Positions 1 to 16,867 of a stretch of DNA of 33,209 nt are shown here, piece by piece (position 1 is the stretch's first letter; the number at the start of each line of letters is the position of its first letter). Origin of the DNA: Deltaproteobacteria bacterium. GTDB lineage: Bacteria > Myxococcota_A > Polyangia > Polyangiales > Polyangiaceae. Both the position numbers and the translations under genes were made by a program. The DNA lies in contig VGRJ01000043.1 in assembly GCA_016875405.1 (NCBI GenBank), forward strand, positions 1-33,209, in the 5' to 3' direction. The notes below the pieces were generated by a model. It ran no database searches and was not told where the DNA came from. It was given only the letters and a program-made list of their open reading frames with translations.

Positions 1-181
1 CGTGAGCATCGGACCGGAGAGGCCAACACCGGCCGCGGCGCTCCCGCGCCGAGCGGCCCCGCGAAGGCGAGGAGCGTTCGCGGCCCAGGCGGACTCGAGG
101 ACCGAAGCGCAGCGACCTTAAAGGTCGTGAGCATCGGACCGGAGAGGCCAACACCGGCCGCGGCGCTCCCGCGCCGAGCGG
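1..181. repeat. 56-bp direct repeat, two copies 125 bp apart
   Basis: Bases 1-56 recur identically at 126-181. Each copy contains a GC-rich hairpin with a 6-bp stem (CGGCGC / GCGCCG) and a TCCC loop, at 36-51 and 161-176. The 69-bp spacer ends in an interrupted palindrome (CGACCTT-A-AAGGTCG, 113-127) that runs into the second copy. The first copy sits on the window edge, so the array may extend further left. The second copy abuts the stop codon of the minus-strand lipoprotein gene at 182, so its hairpin could help end that transcript. No gene is seen here. Confidence 0.85.
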
Positions 182-1207
182 TCACTTCACGTAGACGCGG
201 CCGGCCGCAATCCCCTGCCCGCTCACGGCCGTGTAGACGACCTTGGCGTTGACGCCGAACGGAAGCTGCCAGCGGAAGCAAGAGCCCTTCGTACCGAGCT
301 TGGCCGTCGAACCGGTGGACTTGTCCTCGGCGAGGACCGGGTTCGGCATGCCGGGGAGCGGCTGAAGCGCGATGAACTGGATGTTCATCTCCTGAATGCC
401 GGCGCCGACCGCGAGGGCCGCGTAGCACTTGTTCGGCGCCATCTGGAATTGCTGCTCGAGGATCTGACCCGCCTGGAACTGGCCGGCCACGATGTCCGTC
501 GCGGGCTGCATGCCATGGACTTCCTGCTGCTGCGCGAGGTTCAACGGCACGACGGCGATTTGAGCGGCCGCCTCGGGGAGCAGCGTCGCTTGCGGGCCGC
601 CCGCGCCACCGCCAGCGGGCGGCGGAGGCTGACCGCCGGAAGGCGGCGGCGCGCCAGGCTGACCCGACGCGGCCGGTGGCGTCCCCGGCATCCCCGGGAT
701 CGGGAACGGAAGCCCCGGCGGGATCGGGAAGGGCATCCCCGGGATCGGGGAGGGAGGAGCGGCGGTCGTGCCAGCGGGCGGAGGGGCCGTAGGCGCGGGC
801 GGTGCGGTGGTCCCCGCGGGCGGCGCTGCGGTCGGCGTCGTCGGCTGGCCGTACCCTGGCTGCGGCTGCGGGTAGCCAGGCGGCGGCTGCTGACCGTACC
901 CAGGTTGCGGCTGCGGGTAGCCAGGCGGCGGCTGCTGACCGTAGCCAGGTTGCGGCTGCGGGTAGCCAGGCGGCGGCTGCTGACCGTAGCCAGGCTGCGG
1001 GTAGCCGGGCGGCGGCTGCTGACCGTAGCCAGGCTGCGGCTGACCATAACCGGGCTGTCCATAACCGGGCTGTCCATAGCCAGGCTGACCATAGCCGGGC
1101 GGCGGCTGCTGACCGTAGCCGGCCGGGGGCTGCTCCGGCTCCTTGGGGCAACCGGTGAGCACGAGGGCGAGCAGGGCCGCGCTCGCGGCAAGCGTCGTTG
1201 TCTTCAT
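182..1207 (-). CDS. Proline/glycine/tyrosine-rich repeat lipoprotein
   Basis: A 341-residue predicted outer-surface or periplasmic lipoprotein of unknown function. The signal peptide ends in an ideal lipobox (LTGC, Cys20). Residues of about 25-120 are a low-complexity spacer of PGYGQ and QQPPPGY repeats, followed by a second Pro/Ala/Thr-rich stretch with PIPGMP-type repeats to about residue 200. The last 130 residues form a compact domain with two conserved Cys (KCY and SCF) and end in RVYVK. The same C-terminal domain occurs in the upstream gene at 1289-1918, so the two are tandem paralogues. The start is the ATG at 1207, with GGAG upstream; a GTG one codon earlier is also possible. The spacer resembles cell-wall-spanning linkers, but its role is inference. 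Confidence 0.85.
856..1130 (-). repeat. In-gene 45-bp tandem repeat encoding [11 protein letters not shown]
   Basis: Within the lipoprotein gene, a 45-bp unit encoding the 15-residue block [15 protein letters not shown] is repeated almost perfectly about three times. Shorter variants and 15-bp PGYGQ units follow towards the 5' end of the gene. The DNA copies are nearly identical, not just the protein, which suggests recent slippage or recombination. The unit lengths are multiples of three, so the reading frame is kept. Confidence 0.85.
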
Positions 1208-10606: not shown

Positions 10607-11422
10607 ATGATCCGCCGGACGCTCGCGCGGCTCTGGGCCTTCGTGCTCGTGCTCGACGACCACGACGCCACCGGGGCGGCGAGCGCGATGGCCTTTCATG
10701 CGTTCCTGAGCCTGGTCCCGCTGTTCGCACTCGCAGGCTTCGCGACGCACGCGGTGCTCCACACCGACGCGGGCGCGTTTGCCCCGCTGTTTCGCCTGAC
10801 GCCGGTGGCCGTCTCGACCCTCGCCGACCGCGAGATCATGCGCCTGTCCGACGACGGCGGCGCGCTCCTGCCGCCGCTCTCGGTGGTGGCGTTTCTCTGG
10901 ATTTCCTCGGGCGGGATCGCGCGCGCCATGCTCCAGCTCGAGCTGGTCTTCGTGCGGCCTCCACGTCGCTGGCACGAGCGTCGCGCGCTCGCGATGTTGT
11001 TCGTGGTGGTGATGCTGCTCGCGACCGCCGTCGCGATCGGCGTCGGCCTCCTGGTCGCGCGGCGCGCCCCGAGCGCCTTCGGGCTCGCGAGCTTGCTCCT
11101 CCCCTTCCTCGGTCTCTGGTCGCTCGTAGGCCTGTTTTTTCGCTACGCCACGAGGCGCGACGAGGGCGCCCCGAGGCACGGGTTCCGAGGCGCGCTCGTC
11201 ACGCTCGCGTGCTGGGCGCTGCTCTCGTTCCTGTTCTCGACCTACGTCCGCGAGCTCTCGAACTACTCGCGCTTCTACGGCGGCGTCGCGGCGGTCGCGG
11301 TGCTGTTCTTCTGGCTGTGGCTGATGTCGCTCGCGCTAATCGTCGGCGCCGAGGTCAACGCGCGCCTCGAGGGAACGCGGCCGCCGCTCAGCCGGCGCCT
11401 CCGCGTGTCGGATCTCGGCTGA
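10607..11422 (+). CDS. YihY/BrkB-family inner membrane protein
   Basis: A 271-residue polytopic membrane protein of the YihY/virulence factor BrkB family. About six hydrophobic helices are visible. The family's typical features are the early AMAFHAFLSLVPLFAL segment, a cytoplasmic loop with ERRALAML, and the C-terminal motif YSRFYGGVAAVAVLFFWLWLMSLALIVGAEVNA. The molecular function of this family is not settled; members were once wrongly called RNase BN. GGGGAG lies 5-10 bases before the ATG at 10607, which supports this start. The gene ends 21 bp before the convergent patatin gene. Confidence 0.9.
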   Translation: MIRRTLARLWAFVLVLDDHDATGAASAMAFHAFLSLVPLFALAGFATHAVLHTDAGAFAPLFRLTPVAVSTLADREIMRLSDDGGALLPPLSVVAFLWISSGGIARAMLQLELVFVRPPRRWHERRALAMLFVVVMLLATAVAIGVGLLVARRAPSAFGLASLLLPFLGLWSLVGLFFRYATRRDEGAPRHGFRGALVTLACWALLSFLFSTYVRELSNYSRFYGGVAAVAVLFFWLWLMSLALIVGAEVNARLEGTRPPLSRRLRVSDLG

Positions 11423-11443
11423 CGGCTCGCGGGCGTCGCCACG

Positions 11444-12217
11444 TCACCCGACGACGGTCGGGGCTCGCGGGGCATCGAGCGCGACGGCGGCGCGGCGGTG
11501 AGCCTCGCCGAGCGCGCGTACGCCCTCCTGAAGGCGGAAAGGTCCGGAGCGCGGCAGCTCCGGGAGGACCAAGGCGGTCAGCCCATCGCGGGCGGGAATG
11601 CGGAGCGCCGGGCTCGAGCGCCTGCGCCACGGCGAGCGTGAGGTGAGGTGGTGGTAGAGCACGCGCTCGCCCGGCTCGACGCCGAGGAGCCCGGGCCGGT
11701 CGAGGATGCCGCCGTCGAGGAGCGGTCGGCCCTCGTGCATCACCGGCTGAAACAGCAGCGGCACCGCGCACGTCGCGCGCAGCGCGGGCGCGAGCGGTCC
11801 CTCGCGGAGCACGCGCGTCGCGCCCGACAGCACGTCGAAGACGCTCACGGCGACGGGCACTCGACACTCGGCGAAGCTCTCGATGGGCAGCAACGCGCGC
11901 AGGTGGCGGTCGAAGCTTCGCCCGCGGAGGAGGCCTGCACCGAGCCCGGGATCCCAGAACGCCCGCCGGTCGAGGCGGAAGAGCTCGTCCCGCAGCGCGG
12001 CGGGCGACAAGCCCGCTGCATAGAGGCCCCCCACGAGCGCCCCCGCCGACGAGCCGGTCACGCGCCGCGGCGCGAGCCCCCGCTCCTCGAGCGCGAGCAG
12101 GACACCGGTGTGAGCGAAGAAGCCAAAGAACCCCGACGACATCGTCAGCGTGAAGGGCGCTTCGGCGAGCCAGTCGGCGAGCGTCCGCGCGGGCGCGCCT
12201 CGATGGAGCGAGCACAT
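11444..12217 (-). CDS. Patatin-like phospholipase
   Basis: A 257-residue patatin-family lipid acyl hydrolase. The nucleophile elbow is GSSAG with Ser57, and the second member of the catalytic dyad is Asp168 in DGG ([13 protein letters not shown]). The oxyanion loop ahead of it is [12 protein letters not shown], lacking the usual GGG-x-R/K-G. A conserved later region ([12 protein letters not shown]) precedes the Asp, as in other bacterial patatins. No signal peptide is clear, so it is probably cytoplasmic or exported by another route. The ATG at 12217 is the likely start, although an in-frame GTG lies a few codons upstream. Substrate preference is unknown. Confidence 0.87.
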
Positions 12218-12390
12218 CGCGCAGACGATACCAAAGGCCCAGCGACCGGGCAGGGATGGACCCAACTGGATCGACCTTTCCCCACGTCCGATGCACCATC
12301 CACAACCACAAACCGGCCAGCCGGCCTGTTTTTCACACGTTTCGAACGAACCAGAATAGGCATAGAGCGTGCTTGATGAGGATCGTGCTT

Positions 12391-12402
12391 GGCCAATTGG
12401 CC
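12391..12402. promoter_or_regulatory. Palindrome GGCCAATTGGCC before the copper-monooxygenase operon
   Basis: A perfect 12-bp palindrome sits 8 bases before the AAGGAGG ribosome site of the first operon gene, within a 208-bp divergent gap whose right half is less GC-rich than its surroundings. It could be an operator overlapping the 5' leader. No regulator gene is adjacent, and chance is possible at this length. Confidence 0.35.
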
Positions 12403-12425
12403 GAATGACCAAGGAGGATGTGACG

Positions 12426-13328
12426 ATGCTTCGAGGATGGACGGTGCTGGGTGTGATGGCGAGTGTGATGGCTCTTGGCATGGGCTGCGGCAGCGCCGGT
12501 GACGACGGGGACACCGGCGGCGGTCCGACGTCGACGAGCAGCGGCGCCGGCTCCTGCCCGACGCAGGCGAAGGGAACGGTCGGCAACAAGATCACGTTGC
12601 GCGTGACGTGGCCCGAGACGCTCGGCGTCGAAGCGGGCTCGGCCGACGTGGTGATCTGGACGAAGGCGTCCCTCGACTTCGTGGGCAACGAGGTCACCGG
12701 CTCGGTGCAGCCCTGCGGCAGCGTCGTGCCCCCGCTGCAGACGAAGCAGATCGTCGGCGGCCAGAAGGTACAGCCGCTGATCCCGGACGGGGTCTGGGAC
12801 TCGACCGGGATCCCCAAGTCCTCTGTGCAGGGCACGATCAGCGGCTTCGATCCCGGCGCGACCGTCGCGATGAAGCCCGTCGGCACCGGGGTGGGCGCCG
12901 AGCTCGCGAGCCCGGTCACCGACGCATGGCCAGACAGCTGGGCCGACGTCACGACCAACGACCCGGACGGCGATGGGAACCCCGGCATGACGGCGCTCCC
13001 CAACACCACGGACGGTTTCGTCGCGCCGCCGCTCGGCATCGACCCGTCGGGGCCCCGCGCCGAGAAGCTCTTCCTCGCGACCCGCACGGTCGTGGAGCTC
13101 CAGGGCACGCGCGACACGTGCACCTCGGCCAAGGGCAAGGCGCTCGTGACGAAGTTCGACAACCACGTGGTCGGGTGCCTCGCGACCGATGGCGCTGCGT
13201 GCACGCCGGATCAAGTGGACTTCATCGACGCGAATCGAGTGATCTACGAAATCGGGGAAGCAACCTACGAGATGAAGCAAATCCCCGAGGGCGCAACGTG
13301 CGCCGAGGTGCGCAAGCTGCTCCCCTGA
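12426..13328 (+). CDS. Lipoprotein of unknown function, first gene of the Ntn-hydrolase/Cu-monooxygenase operon
   Basis: A 300-residue predicted lipoprotein. The start ATG at 12426 follows an excellent AAGGAGG site with 8-base spacing. The hydrophobic segment ends at Cys21 (LGMGC), followed by an Asp/Gly/Thr/Ser linker (residues 22-42). The mature domain starts at [23 protein letters not shown] and contains a possible Asp-rich calcium-loop-like segment, [14 protein letters not shown] (about residues 177-190). Five Cys after the linker could make disulfides. I do not recognise a family with certainty. The next gene begins 24 bp downstream on the same strand, so it is very probably cotranscribed with the two enzymes that follow. 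A role as partner or scaffold is inference. Confidence 0.85.
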
Positions 13329-13352
13329 CACGCACCGACAGTGAGGCGGTTC

Positions 13353-15890
13353 ATGAAGACACAGAGACGCTTGGTGAAGGTGGGGCTCGCCCTCGCCGCG
13401 ACGCTCGCGGTCGCGTGCGGAGGCGAGCAGACGAATCCGTCGCCGGTCCTGCCGAAGGCCGACGTCGAGATCGTGGTCGACGACTACGGCGTCCCCCACA
13501 TCTTCGCCAAGGACGACGAGGACCTGTTCTTCGCCTACGGCTATCAGCTCGCCACGGACCGCATGCTTCAGCTCGATCTCTTTCGGCGCTTCTCGCAAGG
13601 GAGGCTGTCGGAGGTGCTCGGCAAGGAGGGCCCCGGATCGGCGGGCGAGGACGCGCTCGCCGACGATCGCTTCGCGCGCATCTTCAACTGGAAGCACTGG
13701 GGCAAGCTCGACGCCGAGCTCATGAAGGCCGAGGAGCCCGAGCACTACGCGCTCACGGGCGCCTGGGTCGCCGGCATCAACCAGCGCGTCGCCGAAATCC
13801 GCTCGGGAGCCGCGCCGCGCCCCGCGGGTTTCGGAGCCGACGAGCTCGACTACCTGCCGGAGGAATGGACGACGGAGGACGTCTACGTCATCCAGAAAAT
13901 GGTCGGCTTCGGGCTCGATCAGACGATCCAGTTCGAGGTGTTCGTCACCTTCACGAAGCGCTTCGCGCCCGAGGTCCTCGACGCGGTCGAGCTCTTTCGG
14001 CCCGCCCGCGAGGTGTTTGCGATGGGCCCGCCGGCGCTCAAGTCGGCCCCCGCCGCGAGGCAGCCGAAGGCCTCGCCGCTCGCGCCGACGAAGCTCCCGC
14101 CGATCGCGAAGAACCCGGCCTGGCTCCGCTGGGGCAAGGCGCGGCCGCTCGGCAGCAACAACTGGGCGATCGACGGACGCCACACCGCGAACGGGCGCCC
14201 GCTCCTCGCGGGGGATCCGCACCTCGGCTACGACTTCAGCGGCATCACCTACGGCGTTCACCTCTCGAGCACCGAGGGCTCGGGCACCTACAACGCCGCG
14301 GGCTTCTCGTTCGTCGGCGCGCCGGGGATCTTCGCGGGCCACAACGAGAAGGTCGCCTGGACGGAGACCTCGTCGTTCGCGGACGTGATGGACATGTGGT
14401 CGGTCGAGAAGAAGGACGGAAAATTCCGGCTCGGCGACGAGCTCGTGGAGCCGGTGCTGCGCGAGGAGACGATCGCGGTCAAAGGCGAGGCGCCCGACGT
14501 CATCACCGTGGCGGACGTCCCGGGCTATGGCGTCATCATGCCGTCGTCCCTCGTCGGGTCGCCGATCCCCATCGCGGGCTCGGGGCGCGAGGTGCTCATC
14601 GGCTGGACCGGATTTCGCGCGCGACCGGCTCGCTTCTTCCGAGAGCTGAACCGAGTGCAGTCGGTCGACGCCTTCGATGAGGCGGTCAAGCGCTTGCCCG
14701 AGATGAGCTACAACTTCGTCGCGGCCGACGCGCAGGGGATCGCCTACCGCGTCGGGATCGAGGTGCCGAAGCGCGCGACGCTCGCCGAAGGTCGCGAGCC
14801 CTTTTGGACGATGAACGGCGACGACGCGACCTCGTTCTGGCCGGGCGGGTTCCTTGATCACGAGACGCTCCCCCACTCGCGCGGCGGCGAGCGCGGCTTC
14901 ATCGTCACGGCGAACAACGACCCGTTCGGGTTCACCGCGAACGGTCGCGTCGACGACGATCCGTTCTACTACGGAGCGCTCTTCGTCCCGGGCTGGCGCG
15001 CGGCGCGCATCGAGGACGAGGTGAAGCGCCTCACCGCCGAGAAGCCCAAGGGCGTCGAGCTCGCGGACATGGAGAAGCTTCAGATGGATGTGCGCGACAA
15101 CCTCGCGGACGACCTCCTGCCGGTGCTCCTCGACGTGTGGCAGAAGTCGGCGGGCAAGCCCGAGCTGGCCGATCTCCGCGAGCGCGCCGAGCTCGCGACC
15201 CTAGTCACGTCGCTCGAGGCCTGGGACCGCCGCCTCACGCGCGACTCGAGCGCCGCGGTGATCTTCCACGCGTTCTCGCACCTGCTCGCGAAGCGCGCAC
15301 TCGAAGACGACTTGAGCCCCCTGCTCTTCCAGATCGTCATGAACAGCGCGCCGATGTACCTGCTCAAGATCGGCATGCTCGCGGCGCGCGGCGATTACCC
15401 GAATGGCGACGCGGTGCTGCAAGAGGGGCGTGAACGAGTCATCCTGCTCGCGCTCGCCGACACCGCCGATTTTCTGCTCGAGCGCTTCGGCGAGGTGGCT
15501 CCGTCGGCGTACCGCTACTCGGACCTGCGCCTCTCGAGCATGGAGCACGCATACGGCCGCGGGATCCCGCTCGGCAAGGTCCCCTCCGATGGCGGCGAGG
15601 CGACAGTCAACGTCGCGCAGAGCTCCTTCCTCGAGGACGGCAAGCCCGCCAGGGAGTGGATCTCGCACTGGGGTCCGATCGAGCGACAGGTCTTCGAGTT
15701 CGACGCCGACGGCACGCCGCGCGCTCGCTACAACACCGCGCTCGGAAACTCGTCCGATCCGAAGAGCCCCTTCCACGAACACGCGCTGCAGGACTGGGTC
15801 GACGGGAATTACCGCGACATGCCCTACCGCCGCGCCGAGGTCGACGCGCACGCCTATGAGCGCAAGCTCCTCGAGGGGGTGAAGCGATGA
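13353..15890 (+). CDS. Penicillin acylase-family Ntn-hydrolase, predicted lipoprotein
   Basis: An 845-residue N-terminal-nucleophile amidase of the penicillin/acyl-homoserine-lactone acylase family. These enzymes are exported as precursors and cut themselves into alpha and beta chains. The signal peptide ends at Cys22 (VACGG). The alpha region opens with VEIVVDDYGVPHIFAKDDEDLFFAYGYQLATDRM. A Pro/Ala/Lys-rich linker (about 230-255) precedes the cleavage site. Ser268 in LGSNNW is the predicted new N-terminal nucleophile, followed by GDPHLGY. The conserved TANNDPF segment, which carries the oxyanion Asn, lies further on. The ATG at 13353 has GAGG upstream. The substrate (beta-lactam, acyl-homoserine lactone, N-acyl amino acid or other amide) cannot be decided from sequence. 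The stop overlaps the next start (ATGA). Confidence 0.92.
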   Translation: MKTQRRLVKVGLALAATLAVACGGEQTNPSPVLPKADVEIVVDDYGVPHIFAKDDEDLFFAYGYQLATDRMLQLDLFRRFSQGRLSEVLGKEGPGSAGEDALADDRFARIFNWKHWGKLDAELMKAEEPEHYALTGAWVAGINQRVAEIRSGAAPRPAGFGADELDYLPEEWTTEDVYVIQKMVGFGLDQTIQFEVFVTFTKRFAPEVLDAVELFRPAREVFAMGPPALKSAPAARQPKASPLAPTKLPPIAKNPAWLRWGKARPLGSNNWAIDGRHTANGRPLLAGDPHLGYDFSGITYGVHLSSTEGSGTYNAAGFSFVGAPGIFAGHNEKVAWTETSSFADVMDMWSVEKKDGKFRLGDELVEPVLREETIAVKGEAPDVITVADVPGYGVIMPSSLVGSPIPIAGSGREVLIGWTGFRARPARFFRELNRVQSVDAFDEAVKRLPEMSYNFVAADAQGIAYRVGIEVPKRATLAEGREPFWTMNGDDATSFWPGGFLDHETLPHSRGGERGFIVTANNDPFGFTANGRVDDDPFYYGALFVPGWRAARIEDEVKRLTAEKPKGVELADMEKLQMDVRDNLADDLLPVLLDVWQKSAGKPELADLRERAELATLVTSLEAWDRRLTRDSSAAVIFHAFSHLLAKRALEDDLSPLLFQIVMNSAPMYLLKIGMLAARGDYPNGDAVLQEGRERVILLALADTADFLLERFGEVAPSAYRYSDLRLSSMEHAYGRGIPLGKVPSDGGEATVNVAQSSFLEDGKPAREWISHWGPIERQVFEFDADGTPRARYNTALGNSSDPKSPFHEHALQDWVDGNYRDMPYRRAEVDAHAYERKLLEGVKR

Positions 15891-16867
15891 GCCGCGGGCA
15901 GACGTGGGCCCTCGTGCTCGGGCTCACGAGCCTCGTCGGCTGCTCGTCGAGCGAGCCTGCGCCGCCACCCGAGCCGGATCCGTTCGCACCCCCGGCGGAG
16001 GATGCAGGCTTCCAGCTGAAGATGGAGGTCGAGGCGCCTGCGGCGAGCGAGATCTGGAAGTGCAAGATCGACTACCTGCCGCCGACGCTCGGCTTCTTCG
16101 CCGCGAACCGCGTCGCGTCGCGCCAGAGCGATTTCATCCACCACATGGACGTGATGGCGCTCGCGTTCACACCGCTCGAGCTCGAGCCCGGCATCTACGA
16201 CTGCGACGCGATCTACTACGCGAACTCCGCGCTCATGGAGAGCGGGATCTTCCTCTACGCGAGCCAGGTACCCGAGCAGCAGATAGAACTCCCTCCGGGG
16301 ACGGCGGCCATGATCCCGTCGAAGATGAAGTACATGCAGGAGGTCCATTACGTGAACACGTCGAGCGCGCCGGTGAACGTGTTCTCGCACGTGAACGTGC
16401 ACACCATCCCGCCGCTCGAGGTCACCGACAGGATCTGGGGCGGAGTCGTACGCGACGCACACATCGCGGTTCCGCCGCTGTCGAAGCACGTCGAGTGGAC
16501 GCGCTGCATCATGAACCAGGACGTGGAGGTGCTCTTCCTCTCGTCGCACACGCACCGGCTCGGCAAGAAGGTCACCGTCGCGCGCTACGACGGCAAGGCG
16601 ACCGGCCCCGTCTTCTATGAGAACGACGACTGGCACGCGCCAAAGCTCGAGCATTTTGCGCCGCCGATGTCGCTGAAGAAGGGCGACGGGCTCGAGTTCC
16701 ACTGTCACTTCGAGAACGACGGAGCCGAGACCGTGAACTGGGGCTTCGCGGCGGACGACGAGATGTGTCAGCTCGGCCTCGTGTTCACGCCGTCGAGCAC
16801 CACGGCCGCGTGCGAGGTGGTCGAGACCTCGGACGGCGTGATCGACACGAGCGGCACCGGCAAGTAG
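15887..16867 (+). CDS. Type II copper monooxygenase-like lipoprotein (PHM/DBM fold)
   Basis: A 326-residue lipoprotein (ideal lipobox LVGC, Cys19) resembling the ascorbate-dependent copper monooxygenases peptidylglycine alpha-hydroxylating monooxygenase (PHM) and dopamine beta-monooxygenase. All six copper ligands are present with family spacing. The first site is His85, His86 (FIHHMDVM) and His154 (QEVHYVN). The second is His221, His223 (SSHTHRLGKK) and Met293 (DEMC). From ligand to ligand the spacing is 68, 67 and 70 residues, against 64, 70 and 70 in rat PHM. The rat residues that hold the substrate carboxylate (Arg240, Asn316, Tyr318) align here with Ser, Gln and Gly, so the substrate is probably not a peptidylglycine. 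The ATG overlaps the acylase stop (ATGA), which indicates coupled translation. The gene ends with TAG. Confidence 0.88.
   Translation: MSRGQTWALVLGLTSLVGCSSSEPAPPPEPDPFAPPAEDAGFQLKMEVEAPAASEIWKCKIDYLPPTLGFFAANRVASRQSDFIHHMDVMALAFTPLELEPGIYDCDAIYYANSALMESGIFLYASQVPEQQIELPPGTAAMIPSKMKYMQEVHYVNTSSAPVNVFSHVNVHTIPPLEVTDRIWGGVVRDAHIAVPPLSKHVEWTRCIMNQDVEVLFLSSHTHRLGKKVTVARYDGKATGPVFYENDDWHAPKLEHFAPPMSLKKGDGLEFHCHFENDGAETVNWGFAADDEMCQLGLVFTPSSTTAACEVVETSDGVIDTSGTGK

Follow-up and report, generated by a model that had tools for sequence, protein, structure and literature searches.

A predicted barrel lipoprotein and a penicillin-amidase family hydrolase form a conserved gene pair beside an independent copper monooxygenase-like gene in a Deltaproteobacteria bacterium

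Gene order at the locus

The lipoprotein genes A, B and C at positions 12426-16867 of the window (the whole 33,209-nucleotide stretch of DNA analyzed here) are best read as two modules lying side by side, and we put the probability of this reading at about 0.6. One module is the pair A-B, a barrel lipoprotein and an acylase that would act on acyl amides, and the other is the independent gene C, which lies behind B here because the patatin-A-B segment is inverted relative to a sister species. The three genes lie on one strand and encode 300, 845 and 326 amino acids, A and B are separated by 24 bp, and B and C overlap by 4 bp, the ATGA at the start of C taking in the TGA stop codon of B. A PROSITE-type pattern finds a lipobox in all three N-termini (MALGMG/C in A, TLAVA/C in B and TSLVG/C in C). 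The coordinates and the lipobox matches thus agree with an earlier note on this DNA, which had described three same-strand genes with this spacing and a lipoprotein signal on each, and the homologs of each gene in other genomes show that all three are real genes. Promoter and terminator scans at the locus gave no signal above chance, and the 4-bp overlap between B and C makes the cotranscription of C with A-B in this species plausible. The features of the locus are as follows, with G001 denoting the sister species.

11423..11443, no strand: left inversion junction, between the ends of a BrkB-family gene (10607-11422) and of the patatin gene
11444..12217, minus strand: patatin-like phospholipase gene (PF01734), divergent from A and part, with A-B, of the segment inverted relative to G001
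12218..12425, no strand: intergenic spacer of the divergent genes patatin and A, whose head-to-head layout is also kept in G001
12426..13328, plus strand: gene A, lipoprotein predicted to form an 8-stranded beta-barrel, of a family absent from Pfam and NCBIfam
13353..15890, plus strand: gene B, lipoprotein of the penicillin-amidase family of Ntn hydrolases, with Ser268 as Ser1 and His290 as residue 23 of the beta chain
between 15863 and 15988, no strand: right inversion junction, at the B/C border, from the DNA alignment with G001
15887..16867, plus strand: gene C, PHM/DBH-fold copper monooxygenase-like lipoprotein, an independent module

At the contig end (window positions 1-189), the stretch GTGAGCATCGGACCGGAGAGGCC... 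is repeated, with copies about 125 bases apart.

A and B as a conserved pair

A and B were searched separately in 97 related genomes, and larger regions around the matches were then read. The separate searches converged on genes lying side by side, with A and B adjacent and on the same strand at 10 loci in six genera (the window, G001, G048, G016, G057, G036, G127, G152, G344 and G315) and divergent at two further loci (G181 and G366). A-B is a conserved unit that is independent of C, and none of the eight A-B loci beyond the window and G001 has C adjoining. The trees of A and B agree in most groupings, and a single clade (support of 85/92) holds the acylase-linked A proteins. G127 and G152, which belong to another family in the phylum, nest within the set in both trees, and this suggests that the pair has been transferred. 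At the two divergent loci (L134 and L135), another conserved gene, beginning MGAVLDLAERMW, follows A.

Over its whole length, B matches PF01804 (E value of 1.7e-141, residues 37-831), which upholds its earlier assignment to the penicillin-acylase family. Ser268, His290 and Asn521 are invariant in 35/35 homologs, as is Arg549, which lies 28 residues past Asn521; in PvdQ, the N-terminal Ser acts with His23, Val70 and Asn269 (PMC7012999). These conserved catalytic residues fit the prediction that B is an active amide hydrolase, and judged by its family, its substrate is likely an amide. By sequence, the best solved structure for B is the D-succinylase 7eby. With PvdQ, the acyl-homoserine lactone (AHL) acylases and other PF01804 Ntn hydrolases, B has in common the full-length match, Ser1 and His23 of the beta chain, the Asn/Arg residues and an export signal, but unlike PvdQ and the AHL acylases, it is a lipoprotein and is partnered with A. 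The identification of B as PvdQ itself (equivalog NF051460) was rejected since its score of 81.3 bits is far under the cutoff of 950 bits.

A matched no family in Pfam or NCBIfam, and sequence searches gave no known family and no solved relative. The alignment of the A family shows five invariant Cys residues and a D-x-D-x-D-G-x-P-G stretch, with a low-complexity linker downstream of the lipobox. The AlphaFold model of A is an 8-stranded barrel (mean pLDDT of 90), for which fold searches gave a best Foldseek E value of 4e-3 and VIA Z scores of 8 to 11 spread across many barrel families. With regard to a lipocalin or calycin fold in particular, the comparison shows a predicted 8-stranded barrel whose matches are scattered across many barrel families. 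Since the barrel resembles only unrelated folds, ligand binding by A is a guess. Seven A-family matches come from one genome, G080 (L104, L113 and L143-L145), in which some of them make up the C-terminal portion of a longer lipoprotein and a close B is lacking.

A second type of partner was found for the A family. In G036 (copy 2), G066, G073, G013, G261 and G093, the A gene adjoins a FadL gene (PF03349, confirmed with Pfam), and four of these FadL-linked A proteins form a clade of their own (97/96), apart from the acylase-linked clade. What is new here is that the A family partners either an acylase or, in a separate subclade, FadL-type outer membrane channels. The sister subfamily of A thus has FadL/TodX channels as its partners in the genome, whereas none is encoded at the A-B-C locus and A itself is not a FadL. 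In a rhizobium, long-chain AHLs are taken up by way of FadL (PMC9938287), and together with the FadL link, this supports the acyl part of the role proposed for A below. Because the FadL partners belong to a different A subclade, this substrate class may not extend to A-B.

A proposed role for the pair

We propose that A would bind a hydrophobic amide by its acyl chain at the outer membrane, the candidate ligands being an AHL, an N-acyl amino acid or a lipopeptide, and would present the bound amide to B; the cell location and cotranscription, like the ligand and the substrate, we infer. B is expected to cleave itself into alpha and beta chains, after which its N-terminal serine would hydrolyze the amide. 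The sister A subfamily has FadL channels as partners instead, through which the same class of molecules is imported. C would be a separate oxidase whose gene here lies behind B. A broader and decidedly tentative idea is that A represents a new family of outer membrane barrel lipoproteins that serve as interchangeable acyl-chain adaptors, with one subfamily docking to an Ntn amide hydrolase and the other to FadL channels, so that hydrophobic amides would be captured and then hydrolyzed at the surface or taken into the cell.

In the likeliest alternative, A would not be a ligand binder but would be dedicated to the folding, export or anchoring of B and, in the other subclade, of FadL barrels. 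In favor of such a role, A has two envelope partners that are unrelated to each other, each in its own subclade, and in most loci its gene comes before that of the partner. However, the wider B clade includes some relatives of B with no A alongside, so B-family acylases do occur without it, a point that also weighs against our own proposal. A further but weak argument is that the closed barrel predicted for A, with its conserved stretch rich in Asp, resembles a binding protein more than a chaperone. We regard this alternative as possible but rather unlikely. The proposal that A binds and B hydrolyzes an acyl amide concerns a pairing that is not described in the literature covered, incompletely, on bacterial PHM-like enzymes, on FadL with lipoproteins and acylases and on myxobacterial acylases. 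The A-B and A-FadL pattern ties an unannotated lipoprotein family to the traffic of hydrophobic molecules at the myxobacterial outer membrane and offers a lead on the breakdown of acylated signals or lipopeptides.

Gene C and the inversion

The earlier recognition of C as a PHM-like copper enzyme was confirmed by a match to PF03712 (E value of 1.3e-12), by a profile search that matches PHM and DBH and by the model of C, which has the two-domain PHM fold (Z scores of 21 to 22 against PHM/DBH over about 270 residues; Foldseek E value of 4e-13). The six copper ligands, His85, His86, His154, His221, His223 and Met293, are invariant in 33 sequences and follow the pattern His-His-His for CuH and His-x-His plus Met for CuM; the ligands of PHM are given in PMC6123673. 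C thus has the two domains, the fold (Z score of about 22) and the six copper ligands of PHM and DBH, but unlike them, it is a bacterial lipoprotein, with about 20% identity and no lyase domain. It also lacks equivalents of PHM Arg240 and Tyr318, which we take to be the anchors for the peptide carboxylate and which align with Ser219 and Gly297 of C. The absence of these anchors makes peptide amidation by C unlikely; an amide or peptide substrate, as suggested in the earlier note, is not indicated. C is a PHM/DBH-like dicopper monooxygenase, and its C-H substrate is probably something other than a glycine-extended peptide. Two C orthologs (L160:6208-7596 and L163:4789-6177) have an N-terminal extension bearing C(x4)CH, possibly a fusion to a cytochrome-like domain.

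A search for C across 379 genomes from the phylum gave an ortholog in 36 of them, the window's own included, with 41 to 74% identity outside the window and a clear separation from paralogs at roughly 30%; the family is phylum-wide. Among the 22 C loci read outside the genus, A or B lay near C in none, and no neighbor common between genera was apparent by eye. In three sampled genomes outside the genus (G261, G228 and G212, the last with a weak A match), A and C were both matched, always on different contigs. C is an independent gene, conserved without A or B.

The order in the window is BrkB-family (+), patatin (-), A (+), B (+) and C (+), while that in G001 is BrkB-family (+), B (-), A (-), patatin (+) and C (+). 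In the DNA alignment, window positions 11621-15863 match positions 6280-1961 of G001 in reverse, and both flanks align forward, so that one inversion of the patatin-A-B segment between the two genomes, in either direction, accounts for the three-gene order in the window. G004 has patatin followed by C, as in G001, with two other genes in place of A-B. For 3 of 4 shared proteins, G001 and G004 resemble each other more than either resembles the window, which makes the window the outgroup of the trio. The patatin gene occurs widely across the taxonomic order, and outside the genus, its matches lie away from the sites of A, B and C.

The earlier note had proposed that A, B and C form a single operon and one envelope pathway, in which C would hydroxylate a compound beside an amide nitrogen and B would hydrolyze the amides of that same compound, and it had suggested searching for the three-gene order across Myxococcota. 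We consider such a pathway improbable. The 24-bp gap, the ATGA overlap and the three lipoboxes speak for it, as does the presence of all three genes within 6 kb in G001 too, the one relative in which they were found together. However, C in G001 lies behind patatin on the strand opposite A-B, and the A-B-C order on one strand was found in this species only and in none of the relatives searched. The pathway was rejected on gene order, given the inversion relative to G001, C without A-B in G004, the eight further A-B loci and the 22 C loci described above, and the replacement of both PHM anchor residues also counts against it. The locus shows that three tightly packed, overlapping genes can lie at an inversion junction, so that such an order calls for a comparison with relatives before it is taken for a pathway.

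That the gene order of the window or of the sister MAG is an assembly artifact is very improbable: both assemblies are fragmented and the G001 contig is only 7.8 kb, but both junctions coincide with short stretches between genes, a search for a long inverted repeat linking the two found none, G004 independently shows patatin followed by C on a 321-kb contig, and A-B and C would stay separate modules even if the order in the window were wrong.

In G263 (L164:6825-8930), a patatin-like gene (PF01734) starts 6 bp after the C ortholog, and with patatin located before C in G001 and G004, a link between C and patatin may recur.
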